Below, in pieces: positions 12,249-37,843 of a DNA stretch of 51,130 bases (positions are counted from its first letter, which is position 1; the number at the start of each line of letters is the position of its first letter). Location: positions 1-51,130 of the IMG/VR virus record IMGVR_UViG_3300047667_000920, one strand, 5' to 3'. The DNA is from a virus. The translations under genes and the position numbers were made by a program. The notes beneath the pieces are model-generated. The model saw only the letters and a list, made by a program, of their open reading frames with translations. It ran no database searches and was not told the DNA's origin.

Positions 12249-12321
12249 AATATGTTTGCATTATTATAATACTGATCCTAATTGTTGGTGTATTCATTTT
12301 GTGTTCCCTATTAGGTATATA

Positions 12322-15300: not shown

Positions 15301-16563
15301 GTTGTCGCTGGCAAAGTCCTCTGTCCCAACGTAAGATTCCTTTGGAGCACCAACGATGGCATAGTTCCCCCATGTTGAAACAGTATACCCAAATGAATCA
15401 TTATTACTAAACCAATGTGGATTGGGGTCTATTATTGAATGCCGTAGTACTGGAAGTGATACGCCCGTGGGACTTGGAGTTAATGTTGTGGTTGGCGTAT
15501 ATGTTGGAGTTAATGTCGGTGTTAATGTTGGTGCAGCTGTTAGGGTTGGGGTTACCGTTCCAGTTGCAGTTGGGGTTGGTGTTACCGTTCCAGTTGCTGT
15601 TGGTGTTGGTGTTAGTGATATAACTGGTGCATTTATTTTTAACCTATCACGGATATCTAGGAATATTGTATTCGGTGTAACAACCTTTCCCACAATTTGA
15701 ATTGATGTGTTATCTGGAACATCTGTAGTTATCTCACCTGAAAGCCCAACAAACAATAATGTACCGGCTGGCTTAGAAAAATTCCAAGCACCATTGTAAA
15801 TGTGCCCACTTGTTGCAAATTTATTAATATCATCCTTCATTATATCGTTTACAGAAACACCCACACATTGACCATTCACAATATCAATATAAGATGCCAC
15901 ACCTAACTTGGATGGTCCTTTCCATGTTACCGCGTGAAATTTTGGAATATTTTCAATAGCCTTAGCCTTTATCTGGAACTGTTCAAGCTTAAATGAGTTT
16001 GAAGGATTTTCCGAAGAATGTACTATAGTTTCAGATGTTAGGAAAGAACCATACGACCTCATTACGGGTTCATCGTTAACATCAAATATTATCTCACCAG
16101 CCTTCCGTGTTTGGTTTAGTTTTATCTGAGAACCAACATCTAATATAGCTATCTTCCCTGCTAATATGTTGGATGTAAATACTCTTATTCTTTCTTTCCA
16201 GTATGAACCAGTCCACACTAACATCTTATTAATTGTTGTGTCAAAGAAGTGTTGATCTTTACTTGGCTTGGTTGGTTGTGTTCGTCCGAAGGTTGGTTCA
16301 AGTGTGGTCTTACCAAATGTTCGCACAGCAGTAGTAGTATCTATATCAACATATAACCAATAATTTGATGTTCTTGAAAAAGGCCCAACCCATGCATTCG
16401 CTACAGTCTCAAGTTCGGTATGTAAATAATCGGTTACACCGTGGGCCAGAGTAAATATGGTAGGCGAAGAATCCGCATTAAGGTTAACATTCCCATTGGA
16501 GAGTGCTATAAACCTAATGGACTCTTGCTTTGATACTATACCTTGTCGTATTGTTGTAAGCAT
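12322..16563 (-). CDS. Giant tail fibre/adhesin with two seven-bladed propellers (copy B)
   Basis: A 1413-residue paralogue of the gene to its left, with the same layout: N-terminal domain (1-317), Thr-Pro linker (about 318-371), seven blades (372-771), short linker (771-788), seven blades (788-1189), third Thr-Pro linker (1189-1225), C-terminal domain (1225-1413). Blade consensus is FGxAVAhxGNYhIVGAP followed by a VYVYDh strand. The blades here are more regular than in copy A. The C-terminal domains share FPDYGIGMKLTT, SPESFT and a Trp-rich AWAWG segment, so they may be a receptor-binding or trimerisation tip. It starts at ATG 16563 with a late promoter upstream but no strong ribosome site. 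Confidence 0.75.
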   Translation of the reverse strand: MLTTIRQGIVSKQESIRFIALSNGNVNLNADSSPTIFTLAHGVTDYLHTELETVANAWVGPFSRTSNYWLYVDIDTTTAVRTFGKTTLEPTFGRTQPTKPSKDQHFFDTTINKMLVWTGSYWKERIRVFTSNILAGKIAILDVGSQIKLNQTRKAGEIIFDVNDEPVMRSYGSFLTSETIVHSSENPSNSFKLEQFQIKAKAIENIPKFHAVTWKGPSKLGVASYIDIVNGQCVGVSVNDIMKDDINKFATSGHIYNGAWNFSKPAGTLLFVGLSGEITTDVPDNTSIQIVGKVVTPNTIFLDIRDRLKINAPVISLTPTPTATGTVTPTPTATGTVTPTLTAAPTLTPTLTPTYTPTTTLTPSPTGVSLPVLRHSIIDPNPHWFSNNDSFGYTVSTWGNYAIVGAPKESYVGTEDFASDNGIAYIINVNSGDVIRTLYNPNDYSFSEGDEFGAAVAMHGNRALISAIDEETEASRGAGVVYMFDVGTGEVTLTLRNPNLNTASEAFGSAVALSDDYCVIGAYRVGDFNDGEAYVYSASTGTLLHTLVNPNPYGLTAFDNFGFAVAASGRYAIVGAPYEDNGGVVYVYDMLGTTPATPTHTILNPNLNGTTVNGTLVGDRFGNAVAIDGNYLIVGAPDEVNALAAKVGAIYIYDLTSGTPTLTYSIPSYNNTTGGEFGSSVSLSGNYAVVGATEGNIYGMAYLINVTTGLLEYTFDYPGTGDANQSWFGFSVSISNETVIVGAPYESNNTLSQYGGASYIYNILTVSNVPAYTPATTNTVTPTPTASYNSYSYTLNNPYAAPTDLFYGYAIALYGDLLCVGAPAYNNNNGEVYVYDILTGTLLETISNPLASTDEFGMSLEMNANYLIIRSETNVYAYNASTRALLFTFNVAGSNLSVYGQPSRGIGLSGAFLIVGDTLFDGAAANTGRAYIYDMAGGTPTTPIHTFENPNAHGTALNDYFGSGVAMDGNSVIIGAMRESEDVVITGFSITNGKAYIYDLTSGTPTIPVYTLDNPTSSTALYFNYDYFGASVAIEGNVIAVGAPFASREGQTISGSVYLYDASTGGLTRTINNPAGEGYNARFGASIKIYGSNLMVGAEAQKSLEGSTVGKAYIYDIVTGDLKYQYDNPVTGGVVVGTTFDGYAAFNYFGHGIAISENYAVVGAYNTAYGENYASFNDGTGRVYVYRHVIATPTPTPASTLTPTPTLTVNASVTPTVTPTPTPVYEFLSGDIIATVVPASQGDIYTMPNSNVYHRYLLIATYSSAEVLAITGGNTTVNILGMEFDVDLQPDNQPFPDYGIGMKLTTNDITLDNSGTNGGTFTIVKSPSPESFTTGVVKEFTFDTPLQWTEGNNLVVSWAWGDTTAWTNTGYTPSGAGIMYINGLDTAGTFAVDDPADWSEPWRPVFRLKLSPV

Positions 16564-16597
16564 TACACTTTATACTCATAATTATTTAACATATGGG

Positions 16598-16605
16598 TAT
16601 TTATA
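16598..16605 (-). promoter_or_regulatory. T4-type late promoter box for fibre copy B
   Basis: Exact TATAAATA on the minus strand, 35 bases before ATG 16563. Confidence 0.7.
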
Positions 16606-16622
16606 GTCTATGGTTTTCTTTG

Positions 16623-16931
16623 CTAATCAACAACTCCACAACCATTACCACCAATGCCTTTATATACCAAGAAGTTTACCCTACCTGCCGTTGGAACCCC
16701 AAATTTAACAGTAAACGTATTGCCATCATTTATTACTACTCCATCGGGGTCTACTAAAATATCATTAACAAATACTTGCATAACGATTAACATGGTGTCA
16801 TTATTGTGAGTCACAACCCAATCGGTGAGTGATGTGAATATTTCAGAATATGGGCACATTGTCGATTCTTTGGGATCAAGTAATATACTCTCACCAGTGA
16901 TCACATTCTTGTATAATTGTTTAAGGTCCAT
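16623..16931 (-). CDS. Small hypothetical virion-region protein
   Basis: A 102-residue protein between two fibre genes. AGGA lies five bases before ATG 16931. The second half alternates hydrophobic and polar residues, with Gly-rich turns (VNDILVDPDG, KFGVPTAGRVNFLVYKG), and suggests a small beta-sandwich; the first half is more helical. It contains two Cys. No family is recognised. Its late promoter overlaps the end of the short fibre gene upstream, so it is probably a separate late unit. A fibre tip, chaperone or attachment protein would fit the position, but the sequence does not decide. Confidence 0.65.
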   Translation of the reverse strand: MDLKQLYKNVITGESILLDPKESTMCPYSEIFTSLTDWVVTHNNDTMLIVMQVFVNDILVDPDGVVINDGNTFTVKFGVPTAGRVNFLVYKGIGGNGCGVVD

Positions 16932-16952
16932 ATTAATCCTAATAGTATATTA

Positions 16953-16960
16953 TATTTATG
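16953..16960 (-). promoter_or_regulatory. T4-type late promoter box
   Basis: CATAAATA on the minus strand, 22 bases before ATG 16931. It overlaps the stop codon of the gene upstream. Confidence 0.5.
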
Positions 16961-18020
16961 CTGGGAACCCAGTTGGTGATGGTGTTGGGGTTACCACTAC
17001 ACCCGATGGTGTCGGGGTAATTGTCATTGCTGGAGTTACTGTTGGTGTTACGGTTGGTGTTACTGTTGCGTAGTTATCCAGTATGATAAGTTGTGGTTGA
17101 ATATCAATAAAAATTATATTAGGTGACACTACATGTCCTAACTTTTGAATAGATCCACCTGTTGGGATGGTAGTAGTAAGCTCACCATCTGCCCCGCAGT
17201 ATATATGGGCCAATGGTTTGTCAGTGAAATTAAATAAATCTCTATTCTCTATATATCCAAAAGTTATAAGAGGTGTTGTGTTTCCACCATTAACAAGGTT
17301 TTCAGTTATACCAACCACCTCAGATGTTATTATAAAGTTTGATGCTAATTTGATAGTATTTTGACCACTCATAATCACAGCACGGTACTTTGGTATGGTA
17401 GTGTCTGCAACCAGCCCATTGTCTAACCTATCAAACTTTACATTACTGATTTGGCCAACATCTTGAATCCCATCACCAGTTTCCGTAACAAATACGAAGT
17501 TGCCATCTGACAATTCTTTAACTACTGGCTTTCCGTCTCTAAAGAACCTTATCGGATGCGCATAGTAATTTCCTATGCTATCTATTTGTGAATTTGCACC
17601 TAACATTGCTATGTTAGTCCCAGATACTGACCCAGAAAAAACTCGTATCTTTTTAGTCCAGACGCCCCCATTCCACACCAACATTCGGTTTTCAACTTTA
17701 TTAAAAAAGTGTTGATCTATTTCTGGTGTCGTTGGTAATGTATTGCCGTATGTTGGCTCTAGGAGTGTAGTACCATATGATACTCTACCAGTAGCTTGAT
17801 CTATATCCCAGTACAAATACTGTGTACTACTACCAAACGGGCCTTTCCATGCAGACTCAACAGTTGCTGGCTCCTTCACATGATAGTTTACCGTACCATG
17901 TGATATTATCAACCCAATTGTATCCACTATAACCAAATCAATATTACCAGCACTGTTTAATGATAAGTATCTTTTAGATCTACTTGTCAGAAAAATACCC
18001 TGTAAAATACTAAACTTCAT
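16956..18020 (-). CDS. Short fibre paralogue ending in the Thr-Pro linker (copy C)
   Basis: A 354-residue protein homologous to the N-terminal domains of the two giant fibres: LQGIFLTSRSKRYLSL, YLYWDIDQATGRVSYGTTLLEPTYG, DQHFFN, KIRVFSGSVSGTNI. It ends just after a Thr-Pro stretch (PTVTPTVTPAMTITPTPSG), where the other copies begin their propellers. It is therefore either a truncated fibre or a short adaptor to which another module binds. ATG 18020 is chosen because the stop of the giant protein lies just one base upstream, with GGGAC before it, suggesting coupled translation; an upstream in-frame start would lie wholly inside the giant gene. Confidence 0.75.
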   Translation of the reverse strand: MKFSILQGIFLTSRSKRYLSLNSAGNIDLVIVDTIGLIISHGTVNYHVKEPATVESAWKGPFGSSTQYLYWDIDQATGRVSYGTTLLEPTYGNTLPTTPEIDQHFFNKVENRMLVWNGGVWTKKIRVFSGSVSGTNIAMLGANSQIDSIGNYYAHPIRFFRDGKPVVKELSDGNFVFVTETGDGIQDVGQISNVKFDRLDNGLVADTTIPKYRAVIMSGQNTIKLASNFIITSEVVGITENLVNGGNTTPLITFGYIENRDLFNFTDKPLAHIYCGADGELTTTIPTGGSIQKLGHVVSPNIIFIDIQPQLIILDNYATVTPTVTPTVTPAMTITPTPSGVVVTPTPSPTGFPA

Positions 18021-18021
18021 A

Positions 18022-21000
18022 CTATGTCCCAGAAGTTGGAGTAGGTGTGGGTTCTGGTGTTGAAGAAACCACTGGAGTATTTGCTGGTGTTGCCGACGGT
18101 AATGGTGTGGACGCACTTGAGCTTCCCGGAGTAGCGTTTGGTGTCAGGGTGGGCGTCGGTGTCACATTAGGTGTAAGTGTCGGTGTCGGTGTCACATCAA
18201 CGGCTGAGGTGGCACTGGGGCTAACATCTATAGTCGGGGTTGGTGTTAGTACTGGTGAAGACACATCCGGTACAACATCTACCAACGCACCACCATCATA
18301 CTCAAAACCCAATATAGACTCAACGACCGCATTCCATAGGGTTACGTCAATTTTATCAAATTGTCTTTCCCTGAACATTTTCCATTCGGTATGTACATTT
18401 TTTCGGTTTAGTTCAGATATATTAGGACTATCTAGCCTATCACGTAAACTGAAATCCTTAGTGAACCTCAGTGTATAAGTGTCCTCAGTGGGAACAGTGC
18501 CACCAATACCCTTGACAACTAACCTAGTATATGCATATGGGAATTCGTATGACAAGTTAAGAACATCTGATGAGATGGATGCACTTATGTCGGTTAGCTT
18601 ATCAGGTATCATGTACGGTGTTGGTATATTTCCCAAACCCTTATTGATTGTGAATAATGTGGTCTTGCTTGAAGTACCACCCAATACTGGAATGGTAGCT
18701 AACCGACCACTTACCCAAAAATAATAATTTGGAACATTATTGCCAGTTATAGGGTCAACCTTATTCACTGTAACGTAAGGTGAATCATACTTATATTCAA
18801 ATGCTGTTATTTGTGTAGGTGTGGGTTCCACTGCTAAATTAACTACATGTATTGTCTTTGCAGAAGTACCAGCAACAAAAACCGCAAATGCAGCAAATGT
18901 AGTATTATTAAAAGTGCCTGTACTATAAAAAACGGAGTCAACATACACACTCACATCTTTAGTGGTAGGCAACCCTGCCGCAGTAAATGATGATGTTGTG
19001 ACTAGTTCCGCAATAAATGGAACTATCTGGTCGCGAGTGTTTGTGGCTCCCGTAAGAATCTCCTCCCAAGTTTGTATTGGGTACGTTGAAGTATTAACAT
19101 ACAGTAATTTACGTGATGTTCCAGTTTTCCTGTCATCTATGGCTGTCGCCCCAGACTGCCCTTCTAGCTGAGCAAACCTATCGTACTCTGTAGGTATAAC
19201 GTCAGACTCTACCCATTGGTATGTTTGTATCTTACCATACGGTGACAGCTTGCCCCAATTGCTCATACGGGCGTTAACATCCGGTTGAATGAAGATGTCA
19301 TCGAAAGGTAGGTAATATTCGTATGTTATATCAAACCACACCTTATCATTAAACCTACTATCCCACAAATTTGTTGTGTAGTTTGCGGGGTCGGTGCTTG
19401 ACCTATAATCAACACCATATATTGCAGTAGAATAATATTGTTGGCGTGCTGGGTTCCATATCGGAACTTCACTCACTACATACTTAGCCTTTCTATTAAT
19501 TATTTTTGCAGGACTTTCAGCATCATAACTATAAGTTAATGTTGAAACATTAATTGATGTGAGTGTTGTTGGGTCAGTAATAAACTTAATCAATTTATTA
19601 GTAATAAATTGATAGCCAACCCCAGCCACCAGTTCCACACGAACAGTCGGTGGTCCTGCGGATACCTGATGTGTTATGATAGCACCATCTGCAGGTTCAG
19701 TTAGTTGAATATAATAGTTACCATTAATGAGGTCAGCTGATACACCCTCTAACCTTTCGGCTACCCTTGCGTTCAAGTAAAACCTGTTACGCGGGTGCAT
19801 CTTTTCCAATTGATCGGGCTGCTCAAACCACCTAGTGCTATCGGTCAAATCAATAGCAGCGGTTGCATTAAATAAGTCAGAGTTATCTGATGTTCCCAGA
19901 GGTTCAATGAAATCTAACCTGAGTTCCTTTCGTGAAACTTCACGTGAAAACAGCTTAAGTTCGGGGTATGTTTTTAATTTAGAATCACCATAGGTGCCAA
20001 GCTTGTACGCCCAAAACTCATCTATATCCAAGTTACTGTATTGCTTCTGGTTAGCGAAAGCATTCGCTGCGAAATTTGTGCCCTTTTTCTGTATAAGGCC
20101 ACGGTAGAATGTAAATTGACTTTTATCAGTTAACCCGATGTCATCACCATAATCATACGGCCCAGCGTACCCCAATGCTGCCCTAACACTCTTAGTAATA
20201 TCATCACCTTCCCTAGAACCATATGCACTATACGCATATCTCAACGATTCAATTGCAGACTCCATGTTCTGAACCTGAGACTCGCCCAATATAACATCAC
20301 CTCCAACGTTTGGTCGTAATGTAAAACCATCCTGTCTATCAAACTCTAAAGTGAAACGTAGTGTGTTTATTCCAAGGAAACTATCGTATATTAATATGCC
20401 ACCACTGCTCACATTTTCAAATTGCAACACATGCTCATACCCATCAACGAATACGTGCATACCTGCAATATTAACAATGGGTGCTGACCCCGTTATATTT
20501 TTAGTAACCCTATCCCCGGTTAAGTGTATCCTAGTTCTTAAGTCCCGACGGGATACGATTAAGTCACTGTTTGATATTGCTATGTTGTCAGAACCATACA
20601 CTCTTTGGTTGGTTATGACATCTAAGTTATTACCAGCTACCATATTAGATATTATTCCAGTATCTGTATCAACCATTACTGATTGCTTATGTGGGTTTAG
20701 TTCGATTGATGGCAATGCTTTATTACTCTTAGCCAGTGTTACGACAGTTACCCCCGTCCCGTTATCTGAGAACTTGATTGGTTTACCGTTACGTGCGTCT
20801 GTTTGTGATCCAGCCAATTGAAATGTGCCAATACCAACACCTTGGATGATATAATAAGGTACTGTGCTAACTATTGGGTTTTCAAGTTCAGCAGGTAATG
20901 TCCCACCAACACTTGACAGTGTTACCTTAGTTCCCGTGTTCCATGTTATAGCATATTCACTGGTAAATGCATTACTTGGGGCATTTGGTGTTACACTATA

Positions 21001-24000
21001 TTGTTCAGAGTTCTCTTCATTTATTGTTCTACTGTTGTATAAAAACTCAATTAGCTCTTCAGTTTCTAACTGCCAAGTATATGCCCTGCCAGTAGAAACA
21101 TCTCTATTAGTACCATCAGTATCATCATATACAAAGCCTATACTTTCCAAGTAGCTCCTATACCCATTTATAAAATCTATCATATTTTGTATGCCAGATA
21201 TTGTTGTTGGTGTTGGGTATGAATATACTACTCTATCATCTACATAGTGCTGTTTCCAATACGCTAATACTTTCCGTGCACCAAAAGCTGTGAATGTGTT
21301 TTGTATTCTGCCAATATAGTTTTGGTTTAGTGGTACTGTAGTTGGTGTTATTATGTCAGTACCAGCAACCGCACCCTCGCGAGTAGTTGATAATCTAAAT
21401 TCCCTACCATTATCTCGAATCAAATAGTATAGGCTTGTAGTGTTAAATGGTGCAGATATCATCCCGTTGGATGTCCAATTCAACCCGACACCAGTTGTCC
21501 ACTGCTCTGGTAAATCAACGGCAGCAGTTGGCTCAATTGACCCGTCTATTATAGTGTTACCTATGATTATACCACCATCTATCTCTATTCGTGTTAGCTT
21601 CGTTGATGCATTATACGCTGATGCACTAACAGTGTATGTGCCGTTCAAGTTAGTTGAATTAACAATATCAAACGTGCTCCCAGCTGAAAAATATTTAGAC
21701 AAATCATCACTCACATATAATACTTTATCAAATGTTGTTGGGTTAAATGAATTTCCCGTAGTCCCAAGGAAATTAGAGCTAGCTGTTGAAAATAAATCAA
21801 CGTCAACTATGGTTGAAAACGTTAACCCACCTATAGTATCACTAGCTATGGTCAAGTTACCACCAGATAGGTATGCTGTACCGTATACCCCAAGTTGAAT
21901 ATTGATAACTGCAAGTAACTCAGAGAAGGTCTGTGCAGCACTCCCAGTTACTGACAGGTTAACTACGTCCACACCATCGAAAGTTACTGTCGCAGTGTAT
22001 ACCGTTGCGTCATTTGCCAACTCGGTTGCTGTCGCACCAACCAATGATTCTGAATATTGCACCACATCAAAGCCAAAACTATCACTTATTTCTGCAGAGT
22101 CAATAGTAAAGCTAAATGTTCGGAGTATGTTACTTCCCGACTCTATACTAACTGGATAGTTTTGAACACCATGTGCCTCTATGGGTTTTCCAATTGGCGA
22201 TGTATTGCTAAATTCTACGGTCCAATCAAGCCCAGCTTCAAATTCAGTGGCATACCTAGATGGTGAAGATACTGACGTTGCAACTAGAGCATCAAGCCAC
22301 ATATCACGTATGCCAGATGCTTTTTTAAACAATACACCGTAATCTTTGGTGGTAACATCAAATAAATCTGATCCTATTTTAAAGTTTTGTGTATCTATAA
22401 ATGCACCAAATTGGTATGTTAGTGGCGCTTCCCAACCGGTCCACATTTGCCTAAACTCTGAAGATACACCATCAAAGCCACTATACCTATTGAAATGAAC
22501 ATACCATTGATTTATGCCATTAGATTTAAATGTCTGGTTCGTGTTATACACCTCACCATGGAATAAAATATTATCGTGGCTTGATACTTTATTTGTTGTA
22601 TCGTCCAATTGTAGTGCAGCAACATCAATTAAATCTTTGCCGAAGGATTGGTTCATAAATCGTAATGGTTGGATTTTGAACGCCACTATCATATCGTCAT
22701 ATATTTTGTTATTCGATACAGACCATTTCCACTCATCTGGGCCAAGCTGCCCGAAAGAAAAACCAGCATTGGGGGTTACGATAAACTCCTGCAACTTCGC
22801 GTCGTATGGTGTCCTGACTGCAACATTTGCTGAATTGTTACTATTCCAATAGGGTGGTAGTATCCCATCGGGAGTGTAACCATCTAGCGTATTCGTTGCT
22901 TCAATATTTACTGGTAAATATGTAAACAATTGTGTTATTTGACCAGCCACACCTGTACCAAACAAACCATTTGGTGCAGGGTTACCACTTGGAATTGTAC
23001 CGTCTAGGATGTTAGCCCACATTACAGCTAACCAAGTTCTTGTTAAACTTACATCAAGGTATTCAGCATCCCACCATGACGGTTTGCTAGTGTATCCCTG
23101 TAAAACCCAAGGCTCTAAGTGTGGGTATGGCGTCCCGTATAAGTTTTCATATAGTGCCTGCCATGACGCATATGTGTTTGTGGTTGGAGATCCAGTTATT
23201 GGGCCTGTTGATATACCCGTATAAGCATAGTTCCATGTGAATGTGTCATTTTGAACGTAAGTTGTATTCAAGTACGGTATTTGGATGTGGTTCTGTAAAA
23301 GATACACTGAAAACTGTTCTTGTATTTTAGCAGCATACTCTTCATCATTTTTTACAATATCAAAGTCAAACTTACTTACGAAGTTGTTTGGTAATAGACT
23401 ATCATCAAGCACGCTATATAATGCAGTCTCGATGTTTAATATCACTTCAGCGTACATATCGTACACATCTACCTCTTCCCATACCGCAATATTAGAATAC
23501 ATGTATAGTTTTCGTGTTTTTGTAGTAGTGTTTGATCTTACAACAAAATCACCCGTAGCCACAGCATTACCATTAATTGTAGTTGGAAATGCATCCCCTT
23601 CTGATGCCACTGTTTGTGTTTCGCTGTTAGTATCTGCACTGGCTAATATTCTACTAAATATTGCTGAAACTATCGCTGGGTTTGAAACTATTGTTTTCCT
23701 ATGTCCGTCGTGGTGGACTACTTGTCGAAGCCCACGTATGTTATCATTAATGATATATGGTTGTACTTTTGGAGCTAACCCAAAGAAAGGTGCAGTTGCT
23801 ATCCAGTTCTTCACGCCCTCATTTGTGTCTTCGTTATATGTTGTACTATCACCAAACCATTGGTCAAGCCTATCATTCTTCTCAAAGTTGTCTTTTACTT
23901 CTTCATTAATATATGAAACTAAGTCAATATAGTTTGTGGCACCACCCTGTGATAGATACGTTACTATATTTTCCTCTAGTATTTCAAACAAGTTTGCTTG

Positions 24001-27000
24001 CAAGCTTGCATACCTCTGACGGGCAAAGTATATTAAGTCTATCGGGTTTATGTTATTAACAAACATAGCGGACAGTAGTGTATCAAAGCCATCGTTATGC
24101 TCTTTAATTCTACCACCAAGCCCATAGTTTGGTATTCCAGTTAGCCTGTACATATTGCTAACACCACCACTAATACCCTGTGCATATTGGCTATTGGTGA
24201 TTGTTGTGAAGTGCCTGAATATTTCAGTTAATTTAATAGTTTCCCGGTTATCGTGTTTTGGATTGAAAAACAACTGGTTTGGTATTTCCCACAGACCATC
24301 TTCCAACCTAGGAACGTATTGCTCATTGTACAGTCCTTTCTTCCATATAGACTGATACTCTTCACCAAATTCCCCACGGTCATAGTAGAGATATAGTTCA
24401 CCAGTTTCACTACCTATCAAGTCCTGACTGAATGTATAATTTTGTGTAGCAGCATCGTAATCTACTCGTTGATCTATATTCGGAAGGTACTCACCCGTAA
24501 CAGAGTTTGTAAATTTAAATAAATTACTTGCTTTTCTTAGTGGCTCATTGTTAACATTATAGATGCTGAACCACGGGTATTGTGACCTATCGTCCTTGGT
24601 TTGCTCAATATAGCGTATATCAACTAGGTTGAATAGCTCTGGCCCGTTGGGTGTGTTTACGTACACTGCACGCTTACCGATCTCATCCAATGCATACTCC
24701 CCAAGTTCGGCACGAACAACATCATCACTTGTTATTGTGATGCTGTCGTCAAATATAATAGAACCCACAAAGTTGGTGGCTGCTGGTGCAGCAATGTCTA
24801 TGAAATTCCCATATTGGCGTACACCGTTTATGTAAACCCGTAAATCACCTTCCTGAAAATCCTCAAACAGGCACAGGTCATGTAGTGATTCGTCAAAGGT
24901 AATAACAACTCCACCAGTTTGACTACCAGTCAATAGTTTGAACTCTTGGAACATCAAGCCCAACTTAGTCTGAAACGTCCCATCGGTCCACGTATCTATT
25001 ACCCCATCTAACATTGGGTTTTTTGTTGGTGAGATGCTAGATGCTGATATGTCTTCTATTCCCTCAAACTGCCAATGTTCGGTTTCAAATGATATCCATT
25101 GGTCACCAACAGCAGTATACTTTGGCGCTACATGCCCACCAATCGGCACTATTGCTACACTATTAACATTACCTGCAAGGTATACTTTTGTGATGAACCT
25201 AGATGTTGGTGTCGGTTGCACATATTCTGATGACGCCACAGTATAATCTCCAGTGTTGATCCCGAAGTCAACCAATTGTATTTCATCGCCAGCAACCAAA
25301 GATGGTGTAAGGTTTCCAAACTTAGAATCAAATACTAATATATTCAGTGCTTCAAAACTCAATTCGCCCCCACCTGAAGTTATTCTAGTATCTATTAGCT
25401 CAAATAGGCTAGGCTCTACGGTGGTAGGTGTGTATGAAAATAAATCACTATCTCTATACTTCCAAGATTTATCTGCAAATGAATGTTTTGATAGCTCCAC
25501 GTATGGGAAGTATTCTATGATTGGGTTTTGTGCTCTGGATTTCCCAGTGAACGTGTTAATATCATTCCGGTGAACCCACTTATTTTGATCTACCCAATCG
25601 TTACGTTGAGTTAGGTCTACGAGGTGTGTGTTGTGTGTGTTGTCCGCAAGGTAACTGAAGTTCTGAACCTTCACGTCCCAAATAGCACCATCCCACTGCC
25701 TAAGTTGGTTATTTACAGTATCAAACCAATACTCACGTAGATCCTTCGCGGTGAAGCTAGTGTCAGATTCTATGTCAGACAACAGCCTTGGCCTAATTAA
25801 TGAATATGCGATTTGGTTTTGCGTAAAAAAATCTGAATCCAATTGAACAACATCCGACGTTACTAAGTTGGTTATCGAATAGTCTCCATCAAATCCAGTG
25901 CCAGTGATTCTAATTTTATCACTAAGTTTATAGTTACCATCTACATAATTTACAGAACCTGCAGTATCAGTAAATAACTTAGAACCCAATGAGGTTCCTT
26001 CAGCCGCACCCGTTGTGCCATTATAGAGTGCTATATTTTTAACCCATATAACTTCACCCATATGAGTCTCATTGAATATTAGAAACTTTGAACGGGTGTA
26101 GTTCGTGTCAGACATGACATTAGTTTCTGCCTGCACTGAACGTATAATAGGTTTAACTGTAACTCTGGTCCACTCAAATACGGCAAAGTCATCTGTTACA
26201 GTTATGCGTGTGTTATCTGTTCCTGTATTATACTCAGATGATTCAACTTTCCATAACGTTATTGGGCTAGGTGTAACCGTGTCATCTTCACTACTAAAAA
26301 TAAATTCATGGGAAAATATGGATGTTACGTCCCCGCGAACATCAATTGCTCTAGCGGTTGGATAAGCCGCCACTACTGTGAGTTCTGTGCTGGCTATAAT
26401 GCTATAAATATCACTAGTACCAAGCACTATGTTATATTCACTTACGTTAAATACTATGGTAGTTTCTTCGGTTATCGTACTATATGTTACACTTGTTGGA
26501 CTTACTAAAATAGGGTCAACTGAACTCCCAGATAATACGGTGGGTGCAGTTGCCCTAAAGTCACTAGTCACGTCACCCGCTAATGTTATAGAATTTGCAC
26601 CAGCATCATACACTAATATTTGATACGCGTTCAGCCCAGAGGTAACTGAGTTGAGTGTATTATTTAGTCGGCTCGTAGACCATGTTGATTGGTTCTTAAC
26701 TGTTATGTACTGTGGTGGGTCAGAGAAATCACCCGAATCCCAAAAGTAATCACCATAATTAATAAGCTTGTCAAGGTCTATCGGTGGAACCCAATTAAAC
26801 TGTAGGCTGTTTCCCCACTCATTAAACCTATCGGTGTTAACGCCAAGTCTACCTATTCTGTTTATGAAGTCCTGAAATGACATAAACCAATCAACATCAC
26901 CTACCTTATTGTGAACTATAGGTTGTAGTTGGTTACCTTGCCTATAGGGTGTTGGTTCCAGTATTTGGTTAAGTTTGCTTATGTTCTGTGGATCAGACCC

Positions 27001-27168
27001 AATGTATCCAATTATACGTTGGATTTCACTCTTTGTTAGAAACCTATTAAATAGGTTTTCATTTAATCCTTCCAATAACGATGCATCCTGCAAGTTATTT
27101 GCAGGAAGTAATTTGTTTAAATCAGTTCTTACTTTATGGTAATCTGATAGATTATTTTTATTGCTCAC
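18022..27168 (-). CDS. Giant 3048-residue baseplate-region structural protein (gp7-position)
   Basis: One of the largest proteins expected in such a phage. It follows gp6, the place of gp7 in T4, but is three times the length of T4 gp7 (1032), and no clear similarity to gp7 could be read. The N-terminal 110 residues are helical (EIQRIIGYIGSDPQNISKLNQIL); the rest is a long run of beta-rich, Tyr/Asn/Asp-rich segments typical of virion proteins. Residues about 1720-1800 contain a domain with AQTFSELLAVIN that resembles an insertion in the sheath. The last 80 residues are Thr/Ser-Pro-rich, like the linkers of the three fibre genes downstream. The start is GTG 27168 with GAGG upstream. A baseplate wedge or fibre-anchoring role is inferred from position. 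Confidence 0.7.
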   Translation of the reverse strand: MSNKNNLSDYHKVRTDLNKLLPANNLQDASLLEGLNENLFNRFLTKSEIQRIIGYIGSDPQNISKLNQILEPTPYRQGNQLQPIVHNKVGDVDWFMSFQDFINRIGRLGVNTDRFNEWGNSLQFNWVPPIDLDKLINYGDYFWDSGDFSDPPQYITVKNQSTWSTSRLNNTLNSVTSGLNAYQILVYDAGANSITLAGDVTSDFRATAPTVLSGSSVDPILVSPTSVTYSTITEETTIVFNVSEYNIVLGTSDIYSIIASTELTVVAAYPTARAIDVRGDVTSIFSHEFIFSSEDDTVTPSPITLWKVESSEYNTGTDNTRITVTDDFAVFEWTRVTVKPIIRSVQAETNVMSDTNYTRSKFLIFNETHMGEVIWVKNIALYNGTTGAAEGTSLGSKLFTDTAGSVNYVDGNYKLSDKIRITGTGFDGDYSITNLVTSDVVQLDSDFFTQNQIAYSLIRPRLLSDIESDTSFTAKDLREYWFDTVNNQLRQWDGAIWDVKVQNFSYLADNTHNTHLVDLTQRNDWVDQNKWVHRNDINTFTGKSRAQNPIIEYFPYVELSKHSFADKSWKYRDSDLFSYTPTTVEPSLFELIDTRITSGGGELSFEALNILVFDSKFGNLTPSLVAGDEIQLVDFGINTGDYTVASSEYVQPTPTSRFITKVYLAGNVNSVAIVPIGGHVAPKYTAVGDQWISFETEHWQFEGIEDISASSISPTKNPMLDGVIDTWTDGTFQTKLGLMFQEFKLLTGSQTGGVVITFDESLHDLCLFEDFQEGDLRVYINGVRQYGNFIDIAAPAATNFVGSIIFDDSITITSDDVVRAELGEYALDEIGKRAVYVNTPNGPELFNLVDIRYIEQTKDDRSQYPWFSIYNVNNEPLRKASNLFKFTNSVTGEYLPNIDQRVDYDAATQNYTFSQDLIGSETGELYLYYDRGEFGEEYQSIWKKGLYNEQYVPRLEDGLWEIPNQLFFNPKHDNRETIKLTEIFRHFTTITNSQYAQGISGGVSNMYRLTGIPNYGLGGRIKEHNDGFDTLLSAMFVNNINPIDLIYFARQRYASLQANLFEILEENIVTYLSQGGATNYIDLVSYINEEVKDNFEKNDRLDQWFGDSTTYNEDTNEGVKNWIATAPFFGLAPKVQPYIINDNIRGLRQVVHHDGHRKTIVSNPAIVSAIFSRILASADTNSETQTVASEGDAFPTTINGNAVATGDFVVRSNTTTKTRKLYMYSNIAVWEEVDVYDMYAEVILNIETALYSVLDDSLLPNNFVSKFDFDIVKNDEEYAAKIQEQFSVYLLQNHIQIPYLNTTYVQNDTFTWNYAYTGISTGPITGSPTTNTYASWQALYENLYGTPYPHLEPWVLQGYTSKPSWWDAEYLDVSLTRTWLAVMWANILDGTIPSGNPAPNGLFGTGVAGQITQLFTYLPVNIEATNTLDGYTPDGILPPYWNSNNSANVAVRTPYDAKLQEFIVTPNAGFSFGQLGPDEWKWSVSNNKIYDDMIVAFKIQPLRFMNQSFGKDLIDVAALQLDDTTNKVSSHDNILFHGEVYNTNQTFKSNGINQWYVHFNRYSGFDGVSSEFRQMWTGWEAPLTYQFGAFIDTQNFKIGSDLFDVTTKDYGVLFKKASGIRDMWLDALVATSVSSPSRYATEFEAGLDWTVEFSNTSPIGKPIEAHGVQNYPVSIESGSNILRTFSFTIDSAEISDSFGFDVVQYSESLVGATATELANDATVYTATVTFDGVDVVNLSVTGSAAQTFSELLAVINIQLGVYGTAYLSGGNLTIASDTIGGLTFSTIVDVDLFSTASSNFLGTTGNSFNPTTFDKVLYVSDDLSKYFSAGSTFDIVNSTNLNGTYTVSASAYNASTKLTRIEIDGGIIIGNTIIDGSIEPTAAVDLPEQWTTGVGLNWTSNGMISAPFNTTSLYYLIRDNGREFRLSTTREGAVAGTDIITPTTVPLNQNYIGRIQNTFTAFGARKVLAYWKQHYVDDRVVYSYPTPTTISGIQNMIDFINGYRSYLESIGFVYDDTDGTNRDVSTGRAYTWQLETEELIEFLYNSRTINEENSEQYSVTPNAPSNAFTSEYAITWNTGTKVTLSSVGGTLPAELENPIVSTVPYYIIQGVGIGTFQLAGSQTDARNGKPIKFSDNGTGVTVVTLAKSNKALPSIELNPHKQSVMVDTDTGIISNMVAGNNLDVITNQRVYGSDNIAISNSDLIVSRRDLRTRIHLTGDRVTKNITGSAPIVNIAGMHVFVDGYEHVLQFENVSSGGILIYDSFLGINTLRFTLEFDRQDGFTLRPNVGGDVILGESQVQNMESAIESLRYAYSAYGSREGDDITKSVRAALGYAGPYDYGDDIGLTDKSQFTFYRGLIQKKGTNFAANAFANQKQYSNLDIDEFWAYKLGTYGDSKLKTYPELKLFSREVSRKELRLDFIEPLGTSDNSDLFNATAAIDLTDSTRWFEQPDQLEKMHPRNRFYLNARVAERLEGVSADLINGNYYIQLTEPADGAIITHQVSAGPPTVRVELVAGVGYQFITNKLIKFITDPTTLTSINVSTLTYSYDAESPAKIINRKAKYVVSEVPIWNPARQQYYSTAIYGVDYRSSTDPANYTTNLWDSRFNDKVWFDITYEYYLPFDDIFIQPDVNARMSNWGKLSPYGKIQTYQWVESDVIPTEYDRFAQLEGQSGATAIDDRKTGTSRKLLYVNTSTYPIQTWEEILTGATNTRDQIVPFIAELVTTSSFTAAGLPTTKDVSVYVDSVFYSTGTFNNTTFAAFAVFVAGTSAKTIHVVNLAVEPTPTQITAFEYKYDSPYVTVNKVDPITGNNVPNYYFWVSGRLATIPVLGGTSSKTTLFTINKGLGNIPTPYMIPDKLTDISASISSDVLNLSYEFPYAYTRLVVKGIGGTVPTEDTYTLRFTKDFSLRDRLDSPNISELNRKNVHTEWKMFRERQFDKIDVTLWNAVVESILGFEYDGGALVDVVPDVSSPVLTPTPTIDVSPSATSAVDVTPTPTLTPNVTPTPTLTPNATPGSSSASTPLPSATPANTPVVSSTPEPTPTPTSGT

Positions 27169-32307: not shown

Positions 32308-34614
32308 TTACATCACCATATTGCTTAGTGTTGGAACTTCATTATCATTTGTGGGGAGAAGATTTCCCAACCCCTTGACAACTTGGGCTAGCATGTCGGC
32401 TAGAATATCAGTTTGTTTTTGGGTATCTTCGGCTGTTGCTGGTTTGTCTGCAACAACCCCTTGTGCATTAGCACCATCAACACCACTATCATTACCTGAT
32501 TTTGGTGCTTTGTATGGTTTTTCACCTACACTGTATGCATTAAGTGATTTCAGCCTAGCTTGCCATACCGCATCATTTGCGGGGTCTTTATCAGCTAATA
32601 CTCTTTTCAAACTAGCAGAATACTCCTTGTTTAATATATCTATGTCTTTTTGTGTCGCTTCTCTACCCAATCCCTTTAAAATGTCTGCAACAAAAAAATC
32701 TGCGTCGTCTTGTGTTTCTTTTTGTAAGTTTTGTGCTTTTTCTTCAGGAGTCTCTTCCGTGGCGAAATTCCATAGTGTGTCAGCAGCCCACGCCGCTAAA
32801 ACGACACCAATAGCTGCGGCTATTGTACCTCCAGCTATAGCAAGTGCACTACCCAACATTACAGGAATCCCAACAATTCCAAGTGCAGTTCCAAGTGCAC
32901 TACCCGTAGTTACTGCACCTATGGTTGCAATTACAAATGTAGCCAGTTGGAACATTGGGGATTTTGCCATACCACCCAATATGTTTGCTATATCGGCATT
33001 ACCTTTAGTTACGGCATGTGTTGTTTCTTTTGCAGCTGCTATTCTAGCTGCCTGTGCCTTAGCCACAGCCTCACCTGCACCAGATTTATCGGATGCCACT
33101 CTGCGTTGGTTTTCATCAAGATTTGCACCATTTATTAATACGAACAACCTTTGCAGGTCACTTGTTGAGCCTTCCGCACCAGCTTCAGTTCTTGCTGTAC
33201 CAGCAAGATTCTCAAGTGTAGCCGTGAGTCTCATAAATTCGTCCGTTTGCCCAGCAGCAGCTACCATTTCGGGGAATGCTGTCCCAAGTTCTAATAGTTG
33301 GGTTTCCTCATCAGTAAAACCCCCTAGAGTCTTTGCCAATTCACCAACAAATTTACCTTCAACAACACGGTCTGCTCCAGATTTTTTACGTTGGTCTGCC
33401 ATTTTTCGTTGGAATGCAATAAACTCTTCCATATTCATGAATACTGACGCCTGCAACCCTTTAAATGACTCGGTTAACATATTAATCATATCAGTTCCAC
33501 GTCCCATGCTAAGTGCCATTCCCTGAATGCCGGTTATCTTTGACAATTCGGACATCTCGCTAAAGATTTGGGACGCATCCATATCTGTGATTTTTGCCAA
33601 TTCTTCAAAGTTATCAACTAACGCTTGGTAATTTTTGATATTTGCAGGCATTCCAAGGTTGCTTAACGTTAATATACCATCGCTTACCATATTCAATGAA
33701 TCTTCACCAATTGCACCAAACGTATCTCGTGTAATATCAGTGAATTCCTTTGCTCGTTTTGCTGCACCCCCTGCGCTTATTAACGCCTTTTCACTTAATG
33801 TCCCCGCCGTATTATCAGTCGCCATCATTGCGGTTAGTGTATTTCTGTTCTTGGTGGCATACCGTGTAAATTCCTCTGGAGATACCCCTAGAAATGCTGT
33901 TTCCCAAACGGTGTCGGCAAACCCACCAACTCCACCCATCTCAAAACCACCTTGCTGTGTAGCCAACATAAGATTAGAAGTTCTTGCTATTGTTGCTACT
34001 GCAGCAGCACCCGCAACGGCAAATCTATCGGTGAGAGTTTTAGTACTTTTACTAAGCTCTTCCATTGACTCCCGCCTTGACTCTTTTTCGGCGTTAATAA
34101 TTGCGATATTATCCAAATATGCAACTTCTGACTTATTCGCTAACAGTTCCATATGGTTACTAAGCCCATCGACAGCTTTACCAATATCACCATCTGCAGC
34201 TTCCATTATTCTAGCGAGTGCGTCGGTCCTATTATTAAACACGCCTAATGCAGTAGATGTGTCCGAGAGCATTTCATGATGTTTTGCCCAATTCTTGTGG
34301 TAATTTTTAGTATCCTTTGCACCTGCCTCAAGTGAGTCTTTAAAAATAGAAAGAGTGTGTATAGCATTTTGTTGCTCTTCTATTTCATCTTTGTTACTTT
34401 TTGTTCTATCCTTAAGAGCACTATTAAGAGTTGTATAGCTTTTTGTTAATCTATCAATTTCAGTACCAAGGCTATCCTCACTGCTGCCACCACTACTAAA
34501 CATTGGTTTTTTAGCCCCAGCCCCGAAACCACCACGACCATTAGCTATAGCGTCAGCCATAAGTCCAGTGTTTTTTGCTATATCTCCTAAAAACCCTAAT
34601 TCTGTTTTTGCCAT
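32308..34614 (-). CDS. Tape-measure-like tail protein
   Basis: A 768-residue protein, mostly helical. Residues about 45-190 are rich in charged heptad-like stretches with GTEIDRLTKSYTTLNSALKDRTKS and later AEKESRRESMEELSKSTK. A long hydrophobic Gly/Ala-rich segment (about 550-617, with two or three membrane-length stretches) is typical of tape measures that enter the host membrane during DNA delivery. It lies next to gp5 and opposite the gp26-like/frameshift cassette, a possible chaperone for it. T4 gp29, the tape measure of that phage, has 590 residues; no direct similarity is claimed. ATG 34614 has GGAG ten bases upstream and a late box. Confidence 0.7.
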   Translation of the reverse strand: MAKTELGFLGDIAKNTGLMADAIANGRGGFGAGAKKPMFSSGGSSEDSLGTEIDRLTKSYTTLNSALKDRTKSNKDEIEEQQNAIHTLSIFKDSLEAGAKDTKNYHKNWAKHHEMLSDTSTALGVFNNRTDALARIMEAADGDIGKAVDGLSNHMELLANKSEVAYLDNIAIINAEKESRRESMEELSKSTKTLTDRFAVAGAAAVATIARTSNLMLATQQGGFEMGGVGGFADTVWETAFLGVSPEEFTRYATKNRNTLTAMMATDNTAGTLSEKALISAGGAAKRAKEFTDITRDTFGAIGEDSLNMVSDGILTLSNLGMPANIKNYQALVDNFEELAKITDMDASQIFSEMSELSKITGIQGMALSMGRGTDMINMLTESFKGLQASVFMNMEEFIAFQRKMADQRKKSGADRVVEGKFVGELAKTLGGFTDEETQLLELGTAFPEMVAAAGQTDEFMRLTATLENLAGTARTEAGAEGSTSDLQRLFVLINGANLDENQRRVASDKSGAGEAVAKAQAARIAAAKETTHAVTKGNADIANILGGMAKSPMFQLATFVIATIGAVTTGSALGTALGIVGIPVMLGSALAIAGGTIAAAIGVVLAAWAADTLWNFATEETPEEKAQNLQKETQDDADFFVADILKGLGREATQKDIDILNKEYSASLKRVLADKDPANDAVWQARLKSLNAYSVGEKPYKAPKSGNDSGVDGANAQGVVADKPATAEDTQKQTDILADMLAQVVKGLGNLLPTNDNEVPTLSNMVM

Positions 34615-34725: not shown

Positions 34726-35676
34726 ATGAGTGACATAGTTAATCCCCTTTTACAAAAAATTAAAATGCCCGGTAAGAGATTTAGGTTGCCGTCTAGGGGG
34801 CAATTCTACGTAAATGGTGAATTGGATGAAAATGTAAAGGATGGTGAGATTGAAATATTTTCAATGACAGCCATTGATGAAATATCGCTAAGATCTCCTG
34901 AGTTTTTATTTACAGGTGCTGCAATAGAGCGAGTTTTTAAAAGATGTATCCCTGAAATAAAAAAACCACTACAGCTATTATCAAAAGATGTTGATTTTAT
35001 ATTAGCGGCATTGCGCGTTGTATCATATGGTGGTTCATATCAGATAACCGACAGATGTGATAAATGTGAAGCAAAGCAAGTAGAAAAAAATAATAAAACT
35101 TTTGATGACTTCTTGGATGAGGTCAGATTAAAAGCAGAAGCCCAACATGTTGATTTTGAGCTAGCTATGCAGGATGAACGTGTTCAAAAGAAAATAAAGG
35201 TTATAATGGGTAAGAAGTCACCAGAACATACTTATACCATTGACTTGGCTGGAATTCTACAGAATAACACAAACGAAATCTCACCAGAAATGTTTACCGC
35301 GTATGACCTATTACTATCAAATGGTCAGGTGCTTAGCTTATTACCATACAGGATGGATGTATCTGTCGCGGCCTTGCAGTTCCAAAACGATGCAAAATCT
35401 ATAAACCTTGATAACTTGGAGGAATTCGCATCCTTTTTATTAGCCGCGCAAATATCAAAGATAGATGATATTGTTGATCAAGAAATGATAAATGGTTGGG
35501 TTACGGTTCTACCTCGCGCATTCAAAGAAGAAATAGATGATAGGTTGGTCTCTATGGTTGACTGGGGTACGGATTTTACGTATACTGTGGTATGTAAAAA
35601 TAGTACATGTGGACATACAAATGATGTAACAACATTATTGAATCCCATAACTTTTTTTATGAAACCCTCAAAATAG
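34726..35676 (+). CDS. 26: gp26-like baseplate hub protein with zinc-ribbon cysteines
   Basis: A 316-residue protein reading like the T4 gp26 baseplate family of marine T4-like phages: PGKRFRLPSRGQFYVNGELDE, DGEIEIFSMTAIDEISLRSPE, IERVFKRCIPEIKKP, then KDVDFILAALRVVSYG. Two cysteine pairs, C111-x2-C114 and C290-x4-C295 (H297 nearby), could close a zinc ribbon. T4 gp26 is shorter (208). GAGG precedes ATG 34726. The last codons contain a run of seven T placed as an in-frame T_TTT_TTT slippery site before a 10-base-pair stem, so part of the ribosomes may continue into the next ORF, giving a fusion of about 389 residues. A chaperone role for the tape measure is inferred from this layout. Confidence 0.75.
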   Translation: MSDIVNPLLQKIKMPGKRFRLPSRGQFYVNGELDENVKDGEIEIFSMTAIDEISLRSPEFLFTGAAIERVFKRCIPEIKKPLQLLSKDVDFILAALRVVSYGGSYQITDRCDKCEAKQVEKNNKTFDDFLDEVRLKAEAQHVDFELAMQDERVQKKIKVIMGKKSPEHTYTIDLAGILQNNTNEISPEMFTAYDLLLSNGQVLSLLPYRMDVSVAALQFQNDAKSINLDNLEEFASFLLAAQISKIDDIVDQEMINGWVTVLPRAFKEEIDDRLVSMVDWGTDFTYTVVCKNSTCGHTNDVTTLLNPITFFMKPSK

Positions 35677-35720
35677 GTGGTGTTAAGCAGATGAGCATTT
35701 TGTTGGCGAGTTTTGAGGGT
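35652..35720 (+). promoter_or_regulatory. Candidate programmed -1 ribosomal frameshift signal
   Basis: T_TTT_TTT (35652-35658) is in frame with the gp26-like gene as X_XXY_YYZ. After a five-base spacer, a perfect 10-base-pair stem forms from 35664-35673 (ACCCTCAAAA) and 35711-35720, with a 37-base loop. In the -1 frame there is no stop between the slip site and ATG 35691 of the downstream ORF, while the zero frame ends at TAG 35674-35676. Confidence 0.75.
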
Positions 35721-35894
35721 CAGATTAGAAATATTGTGAGCGATTGTATAGCTATCTCACATTACTATAAGGGTATAGACTACCATGCTATATTCGAAAT
35801 ATCACCCTTTGAGAAACAGTTAATGGTTGATTTTATAGAGCAAGACCAAGAACGTGAAATGAAAATACGCAGTGCATCATTCGGTGGAAGATGA
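35691..35894 (+). CDS. Small frameshift-partner ORF (T-like half of a tape-measure chaperone pair)
   Basis: A 67-residue ORF in the -1 frame relative to the gp26-like gene, joined to it by the slippery site just upstream. The protein is helical with SHYYKGIDYHAIFEISPFEKQLMVDFIEQ, a pattern like the small C-terminal extensions (gpT-type) of tail assembly chaperones in other phages. It also has its own ATG with AGGTGG ten bases upstream, so independent translation is possible as well. Its stop overlaps the start of the next gene (ATGA). The T-like role is inference from layout. Confidence 0.65.
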   Translation: MSILLASFEGQIRNIVSDCIAISHYYKGIDYHAIFEISPFEKQLMVDFIEQDQEREMKIRSASFGGR

Positions 35895-36238
35895 GATTAA
35901 TAGTAGCAGGTTCTAGAACTTTTAGTAATAAGGAAAAGGTTTTTAAGAACTTAAATAAGATATATAAACATTACCCAGACCTAGAAATAGTATCGGGCCT
36001 TGCAAAGGGTCCAGACACTATGGGTAAAGATTGGGCTAAAATTAATAATGTTAAATGCCACGACTTCCCCGCAAACTGGGATAAGTACGGTAAGCGTGCT
36101 GGTTTTATTCGTAATGAGCAGATGGCTCACTTTGCTGATGCTGCCCTTGTTTACTGGGATGGTAAGTCCCCCGGTTCCAAATCAATGATTAAACTGGCTA
36201 ATGAAGCTGATCTCAATTTAGCAGTTGTTTATTATTAA
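35891..36238 (+). CDS. SLOG-superfamily protein (DUF2493/YspA-like)
   Basis: A 115-residue protein with the DUF2493 pattern: MRLIVAGSRTFSN at the start (nucleotide-binding loop), SGLAKGPDTMG, then FPANWDKYGKRAGFIRNEQM and ALVYWDGKSPGSKSMIKLA. SLOG proteins have a Rossmann-like fold that binds nucleotides or nucleotide-derived ligands; some are nucleoside hydrolase-like or sensors in defence systems. The substrate cannot be told here. The start overlaps the previous stop by four bases, so it is translationally coupled to the chaperone-like cassette, although its job is probably unrelated. Confidence 0.85.
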   Translation: MRLIVAGSRTFSNKEKVFKNLNKIYKHYPDLEIVSGLAKGPDTMGKDWAKINNVKCHDFPANWDKYGKRAGFIRNEQMAHFADAALVYWDGKSPGSKSMIKLANEADLNLAVVYY

Positions 36239-37031: not shown

Positions 37032-37174
37032 GTAAACAAATATGTATACATTGGTGTAAAATTGTAAACCCATATGTATACTTATAAGCGAATGGTTTAG
37101 CTCAAGCGAAAGTTGTATCAGTTACGATGGTACATACAAGAAACAACAACATTAAGTAAATTAGTATAGCGAAA

Positions 37175-37232
37175 GATAGTGGACAGTTCAAGACTGTTTT
37201 GTTGCCACTATTCAAAAAAACAAAACTGTTCC
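37175..37232 (+). ncRNA. Switch-like hairpin region with competing stems
   Basis: One fold pairs 37176-37182 (ATAGTGG) with 37205-37211 and 37083... more exactly 37183-37187 (ACAGT) with 37193-37197, giving a nested hairpin with a seven-base bulge. Two competing stems use the same bases: 37196-37203 with 37219-37226 (8 pairs), and 37181-37188 with 37224-37232 (8 pairs, one bulge). The alternatives exclude one another, as in riboswitches or attenuators. No ligand class is recognised. Confidence 0.45.
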
Positions 37233-37237
37233 AGTGC

Positions 37238-37422
37238 AATTGTTTAAGGGGAGTTGAAGCATCGCAGTAACGATGGGTAAGGGCCGCTCCGGTTAAGTAC
37301 CAACAGGTGGTAGTTGTCTTGTTGGATAATACTTAAAAGATAAAGAGAGTTAATGAAGTAACTTGTTAAGAGTGTGGTGGCGCTCGTTAAATAACCCATA
37401 CTCTTATAAGTCTTAAACAATT
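37238..37422 (+). ncRNA. Candidate structured RNA, multibranched domain closed by an 11-bp helix
   Basis: 37238-37248 is perfectly complementary to 37412-37422 (11 pairs) across 163 bases. Inside lie four hairpins in a row: 37260-37264/37271-37275 (5 pairs); 37293-37299 plus 37300-37307 against 37318-37325 plus 37330-37336 (15 pairs with a four-base bulge); 37348-37352/37359-37363 (5 pairs); and 37368-37377/37396-37405 (10 pairs, one G-T). No coding frame covers the area. The strand is assumed from the flanking genes, which run rightward. No known RNA class was recognised by eye. Confidence 0.6.
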
Positions 37423-37463
37423 AATAAGTTATAAAATCTAACCCAATTTACATCAGGTTGTTA

Positions 37464-37566
37464 GTTACGTATAAGCTACAGGATAGTTACTGATAGGGTA
37501 CTATGTTTGGATAATAGGAATATAATAAACCCCTAATATCTTAATAGTAACCCCTTACTTCGTAAC
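37464..37566 (+). ncRNA. Candidate structured RNA, second domain
   Basis: Nested pairings suggest one long arm: 37464-37469 with 37561-37566 and 37472-37475 with 37554-37557; then 37497-37504 with 37544-37552 (8 pairs, one bulged A); then 37510-37518 with 37532-37540 (8 of 9). A small hairpin at 37438-37464 (CTAACCC/GG..GTTAG) lies between the two domains. It may be part of the same transcript as the domain to its left. Confidence 0.5.
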
Positions 37567-37637
37567 GGCCCTACTTATCTCAAAAGGAAAGTTATTTTAC
37601 AGTATAAACCACATTGTATCTTATAATCACCACAAAC

Positions 37638-37787
37638 ATTATTATACAAGCTTATTATACATCAATATTATTATACACTATTATTATACAACACTATTAT
37701 ACTAACTTATTATTATACAACACTATTATACAACACTATTATTATACAACACTATTATACAACACTATTATACAACATTATTCAAAT
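37638..37787 (+). repeat. Iterated ATTATACA repeats (about ten copies)
   Basis: About ten copies of ATTATACA are spaced by 13 or 16 bases, in units TATTATACAACAC and TATTATTATACAACAC. The stretch is extremely AT-rich and noncoding, and ends about 57 bases before the helicase gene. Iterons of a replication origin, a binding array for a regulator, or a promoter cluster are possible. The ORF that can be read through it is only low-complexity Ile/Tyr/Leu. Confidence 0.8.
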
Positions 37788-37843
37788 ACTCGTTGTGTAG
37801 AACACTATTACCTGATACACTACTTGTAAATATGGAGACTTAC

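Follow-up and report, generated by a model that had tools for sequence, protein, structure and literature searches.

Does the gp26-like gene of this 51,130-nucleotide stretch of virus DNA (hereafter the window) give a single product, or do some ribosomes leave its frame just before the stop codon and read on into the small open reading frame that follows? The locus bears on a broader statement, namely that frameshifting of the G-T type is a conserved trait of long-tailed phages, "except T4" (PMC5009743). The initial annotation proposed that the gp26-like protein and the small open reading frame form a G/GT pair, and this proposal is supported by the conservation of the slip site, the coding character of the -1 frame and the recurrence of stems 3' of it. 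On these sequence-based grounds, we give a probability of roughly 0.93 to the reading that one gp26-like message would be translated into two tail assembly chaperones (TAC) by a -1 ribosomal slip.

The proposed slip cassette and its surroundings

Direct reading of the window confirmed each element described in the initial annotation, that is, the heptamer, the five-base spacer, the stem of 10 base pairs with its 37-base loop and the -1 frame extending to 35894 (Table 1). The heptamer lies in the X_XXY_YYZ zero-frame phase that serves as a criterion for programmed -1 frameshifting, and the 5-nt distance to the stem is inside the 5-9 nt criterion for stimulators of such events. The stem arms are ACCCTCAAAA (35664-35673) and TTTTGAGGGT (35711-35720), the gp26 stop codon opens the loop, and minimum free energy folding adds one G-U pair. 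While the zero-frame protein ends in ...NPITFFMKPSK, the -1 frame is open from the TAT at 35658 through an ATG at 35691 to the stop codon at 35892-35894, and the part starting at this ATG is a 67-residue open reading frame that annotators would list as a separate gene. Such a combination is rare in the window: among 19,031 codons of open reading frames of at least 100 residues, only 4 in-frame T_TTT_TTY sites were found, and the one in the gp26-like gene is the sole site close to a 3' end with a -1 frame running past the stop. Furthermore, a perfect 10-bp stem at such a spacing begins at 0.12% of window positions, and the 96-nt slip region folds with -25.1 kcal/mol (z = -3.1 against dinucleotide shuffles).

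Table 1. Features of the gp26-like locus in the window
Feature	Positions	Strand	Basis
Possible tape measure protein, 768 aa, divergent neighbour of the gp26-like gene	32308..34614	-	position
gp26-like gene (PF12322 / phrog_150), 316 aa; zero-frame product, putative TAC-N (G-like)	34726..35676	+	
Slippery heptamer T_TTT_TTT; gp26 codons Thr-Phe310-Phe311	35652..35658	+	sequence, homologues
5-nt spacer ATGAA	35659..35663	+	
3' stem-loop; arms 35664-35673 and 35711-35720, perfect 10 bp, 37-nt loop	35664..35720	+	
-1 frame extension, 78 codons, giving a putative TAC-NC (GT-like), 389 aa in total	35658..35894	+	open frame, dN/dS

The identity of the zero-frame protein is given by its matches to the Pfam family T4_baseplate (PF12322, gp26; E=3.8e-7, 30.5 bits versus a cut-off of 24.5) and to phrog_150, labelled "baseplate hub" (E=3.5e-9), and its family aligns with cyanophage gp26 in a profile-to-profile comparison (E=3.6e-42). 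Its relatives among public phages are giant phages, including XacN1, Atu_ph07, 121Q/PBECO4, RaK2, PA5oct and GAP32, and a 51-kb virus record (G000) holds a single gp26-type copy. The divergent neighbour found no family match in profile searches, Pfam and PHROG among them; its counterpart in RaK2 is annotated as similar to tape measure protein. On the other side, the next gene (35891-36238) encodes a YspA/SLOG-family protein (PF10686) and has a four-base overlap (ATGA) with the end of the -1 extension, so that ribosomes completing the frameshift product may feed this gene.

Two other regions of the window were recorded. A stretch of about 760 bases poor in open reading frames (37032-37792) lies between RuvC-like and helicase-like genes, folds better than shuffles at 37080-37600 (z -2.8), carries an AT-rich tandem repeat at 37635-37782 (TATTATACAACAC) and has no match in Rfam; a structured RNA or an origin-like region is possible there. 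Several short tandem repeats based on GTTGGTGTTAC, with periods of 6-30, are scattered over 8 kb (9991-18197) and adjoin a very long minus-strand open reading frame (18022-27168).

Conservation of the slip site, the -1 frame and the stem

To examine the locus in relatives, 120 gp26 genes (PF12322 / phrog_150) were gathered solely through gp26 homology; they comprise a first set of 18 that counts the window, 80 cyano-type loci, S-PM2, Syn9, P-SSM2, HTVC008M, KVP40 and phiM12 among others, and include near-copies, 113 being distinct over 121 nt. As the initial annotation anticipated, the T run is conserved: 119 of the 120 genes carry T_TTT_TTC (107) or T_TTT_TTT (12) in frame, 6-39 nt upstream of the stop. 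The -1 frame is likewise open in all 119, for 57-81 codons save in two loci (L101 and L133) in which the contig end is reached first, and thus in every slip-site gene with long enough sequence. Aeh1 and Cr30, examined outside this set, have the slip site as well. The lone exception is Bacillus phage SP-15, in whose gp26-like gene (L047, 2384-3330) the Phe-Phe codons follow an A (A_TTT_TTT). Its C-terminal domain can be read in the +1 frame, which is equivalent to -2, and the chaperone frameshift of this gene may be a variant of the -2 or +1 type; phage Mu is comparable to this type.

One could wonder whether the frame change is a homopolymer error of sequencing or assembly, gp26 and the extension being in truth a single open reading frame, since homopolymers are error-prone. 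However, independent isolates and metagenomes supply 119 homologues with the same -1 change, at a slip-to-stop distance of 6-39 nt; this conserved phase change refutes the explanation, the probability of which is negligible. Nor does the conservation merely reflect the amino acids encoded: these genes contain 81 further Phe-Phe pairs, none of which has the form T_TTT_TT, when codon usage predicts NNT_TTT in 37%. In the 77 distinct cyano-type loci, the entropy is zero at each of the seven heptamer positions, versus a mean of 1.43 bits at neighbouring zero-frame third positions; an alignment across all jumbo groups offered no stretch conserved enough for scanning. Judged by this codon choice, the conserved heptamer is more than a conserved Phe-Phe.

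The -1 extension itself evolves as protein, as indicated by its entropy at the three codon positions in cyano-type loci (0.69/0.38/1.24 bits) and by dN/dS values of 0.04-0.14 for unsaturated pairs (0.14 for the window versus its relative L005). A coding -1 frame could belong to a separate small gene started at ATG 35691, perhaps coupled to gp26 termination, the T run being incidental. Indeed, this ATG lies 15 nt past the gp26 stop, 73 of the 117 complete extensions have an ATG within their first 13 codons (codon 12 in the window), and the downstream frame is annotated as its own gene in several genomes, for instance as a short "gp51" in cyanophages (PMC3037559). Nevertheless, 44 of the 117 lack an ATG in these codons and 25 lack ATG, GTG and TTG altogether; the PA5oct extension has no start codon in all of its 73 codons, and in L005-L008, the nearest relatives of the window, none occurs before codon 27, so that a frameshift is needed in these phages. 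Moreover, the residues encoded upstream of ATG 35691 are kept in the -1 frame (YETLK in the window, YNTLR in L005 and YRTLR in RAS14) and the heptamer is invariant, which leaves a separate gene very improbable as the explanation. Along with the preferred -1 slip, internal initiation at ATG 35691 could add a short product in the window. The 67-residue frame used alone as query against viral contigs returned no match, because the domain is too short and too divergent for a single-sequence search.

Folding 3' of the slip site is stronger than elsewhere in the same genes, with a mean z of -1.83 (n=113) versus -0.47 in control windows (n=723); since the loci are related, the p value of 3e-19 is a nominal one. 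As to the stem pairs that the initial annotation suggested comparing among relatives, stems recur at the same place with different sequences and with some covariation. Those of L005 (CCCTCAGAATC/GATTTTGAGGG), XacN1 (CCATCAAGTCC/GGACTTGATGG) and S-PM2 (GTTCTATAATAAT/ATTATTATAGAAC) are unrelated in sequence to one another and to that of the window. A subgroup of 12 sequences shares a two-part stem with 92.3% of cells paired; 3 pairs have changed on both sides, and the covariation score of this stem was matched by 0 of 500 shuffles. A scan for 6-bp helices in 77 gapless cyano-type loci found no single common stem (72% paired at best), so the stems there are subgroup-specific. The stem is thus frequent and not universal, Syn9, HTVC008M and L080 being examples of loci without one.

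These observations also bear on slippage of RNA polymerase on the T run, which would join the two frames in the transcript and which the homopolymeric T7 of the window and the longer runs of a few relatives (L016, L027) might favour. However, 107 of the 120 genes have only six T followed by C (T_TTT_TTC), a short run for polymerase slippage. In addition, the T run invariably takes the X_XXY_YYZ phase, with more structure 3' of it than in control windows, as fits ribosomes; polymerase slippage is therefore very improbable. We infer the ribosomal nature of the slip, as well as its efficiency.

T4 gp51 and the two-gene state

In T4, two genes match PF12322, namely gp26 and, over its first 201 residues, gp51 (E=1.8e-53 for gp51), and the question arises of what corresponds to the remainder of gp51 in phages with a slip site. 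The S-PM2 extension matches phrog_634, the "baseplate hub assembly catalyst" (E=3.5e-28), as well as positions 239-281 of phrog_150, and both families are also matched, at this place, by the C-terminus of T4 gp51. By these profile matches, the cyanophage extension and the C-terminal domain of T4 gp51 are homologues. Since the window-type extension alone gave no significant match to PHROG families, its homology to gp51 is argued via the cyanophages and a profile comparison of the jumbo-type extension with the cyano/gp51 type, which gave a modest match (84%, E=7.5e-6, 33 columns).

Whole-record searches found a single gp26-type gene in eleven jumbo-phage records and in SP-15. Cyanophages, HTVC008M, phiM12, Aeh1 and Cr30 have a single gp26 gene with an out-of-frame C-domain, and KVP40 one gp26 gene with the C-domain in the -1 frame. 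The two-gene state occurs in T4, 44RR, EC-F2, an Acinetobacter phage and CP220, gp51 being composed of a gp26-like domain and the C-domain, and the slip site is absent from the 3' ends of the gp26 genes of these five. Apart from SP-15, the one-gene genomes carry the slip site and those with a separate gp51 are devoid of it. The initial annotation expected the layout to explain why T4-like phages seem to lack G/GT; this needs amending for T4 itself, in which, as in the other split phages, gp26 and a full gp51 are separate genes and the slip site is lost.

In a protein tree, four gp51s form one supported clade (100/99) beside the gp26s of the same phages, and the frameshift-type KVP40 and Aeh1 form the sister group of the phages with split gp26/gp51. 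The tree was midpoint-rooted for drawing only, and calling the split state derived relies on the breadth of the frameshift state, not on the root; so read, the two-gene split looks derived inside Straboviridae. The split gp26/gp51 of CP220 (L154, L158, L160) sit on very long branches and are unplaced in the tree; CP220 may represent a second, independent origin of the two-gene state. Taken together, these patterns allow a tentative scenario, to which we grant somewhat less than an even chance: the T_TTT_TTY -1 slip would be ancestral and general for gp26-family chaperones (jumbo phages, cyanophages, pelagiphages, rhizobial phages and the deep-branching Straboviridae KVP40 and Aeh1), T4 gp26/gp51 would be the later outcome of a gene duplication, an in-frame fusion and slip-site loss, and this history would be previously undescribed. 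The frameshift reading of the gp26 family would also account for the apparent T4 exception, frameshifting being the rule in this family and the two genes of T4 looking derived.

Proposed chaperone role and comparison with known systems

According to the proposed mechanism, most ribosomes would terminate at 35676 and release TAC-N (gp26, 316 aa). In a minority, with both tRNA-Phe on T_TTT_TTT and the ribosome paused by the stem-loop, a slip back by one base would lead into the -1 frame up to 35894, and the resulting TAC-NC would consist of 311 gp26 residues and a 78-residue domain. By its sequence, the locus encodes a short form and a long form with the same N-terminal part. By analogy with lambda G and GT, the TAC-N part would coat the tape measure protein, while recruitment of tail tube subunits would fall to the extra domain. 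Several elements are consistent with this role. In SP-15, the gp26-type gene lies between the tail tube and tape measure genes, which is the usual position of a TAC gene. An AlphaFold model of the window protein (pLDDT 88) has the HK97 tail assembly chaperone 2ob9 as its top VIA-align match (Z 5.8, 99/107 residues), a weak match, and a Foldseek search of the model against the PDB gave no significant match (2ob9 at E=2), so that likeness to the HK97 fold is suggestive only. Furthermore, PMC3004832 lists both T4 gp26 and gp51 among hub assembly chaperones, and the binding partners of lambda G and GT are the tape measure and tube proteins (PMC5009743). From the gene position in SP-15, the HK97 match, the T4 listing and lambda G/GT binding, we infer that gp26 and its extension act as a TAC-N/TAC-NC pair.

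This reading would have practical consequences. Stretches 3' of gp26 that are labelled "hypothetical protein" or left unannotated would become part of one annotated product, and the label of gp26 would move from "baseplate hub subunit" to tail chaperone. Phages with and without the slip site would also provide paired natural controls on the need for two products.

Tail chaperones of T4-like phages were reportedly identified by Vladimirov, Gautam and Davidson in 2022 (Virology), in a paper whose title is said to argue for a mechanism other than frameshifting; as reportedly paraphrased in the PRFect work, it describes, for some T4-like phages, a short gene and a long one. PMC12846349 credits this 2022 study with poly-T -1 signals in T4-like TAC-N genes. 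The initial annotation's remark that such a frameshift was undescribed for gp26 homologues is thus too broad with respect to the signals. The gp26 frameshift would add to known T4-like chaperone signals, and both its breadth and the direction in which T4 changed may be new elements.

The tail chaperone genes of Vandenendeviridae and Andersonviridae, with their conserved GTTTTT -1 signal (PMC12846349), resemble the gp26 system in having a poly-T slip near the 3' end of TAC-N and a downstream frame misannotated as a separate gene; they differ in phage family and slip motif, the likeness being one of layout. According to PMC3037559, cyanophage gp51 is a separate gene with one fifth of the usual length, and Aeh1 lacks gp51. 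By its phrog_634 match, the cyanophage gene corresponds to the -1 extension, and whereas it was annotated as a truncated gene, the present evidence points to the end of a frameshift product. In Aeh1 (L152 / L159), gp51 is present as a -1 extension after T_TTT_TTC at the end of gp26, and the -1 extension would explain both descriptions. With T4, the gp26 system shares a homologous N-domain, to which gp51 adds the C-domain; the difference resides in the two genes of T4, 44RR, EC-F2, the Acinetobacter phage and CP220, compared with one gene and a -1 slip in the window, cyanophages, KVP40, Aeh1 and jumbo phages. Finally, lambda G/GT (Levin 1993; Xu 2004, 2013; PMC5009743) likewise relies on one gene with a -1 slip near its 3' end, giving a short major and a long minor product that act as tape measure and tube chaperones, a function that gp26 would share. 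Unlike lambda, the gp26 genes place T_TTT_TTY as slip site at their very 3' end, many members have a stem-loop, and the N-domain belongs to the gp26 family, PF12322.
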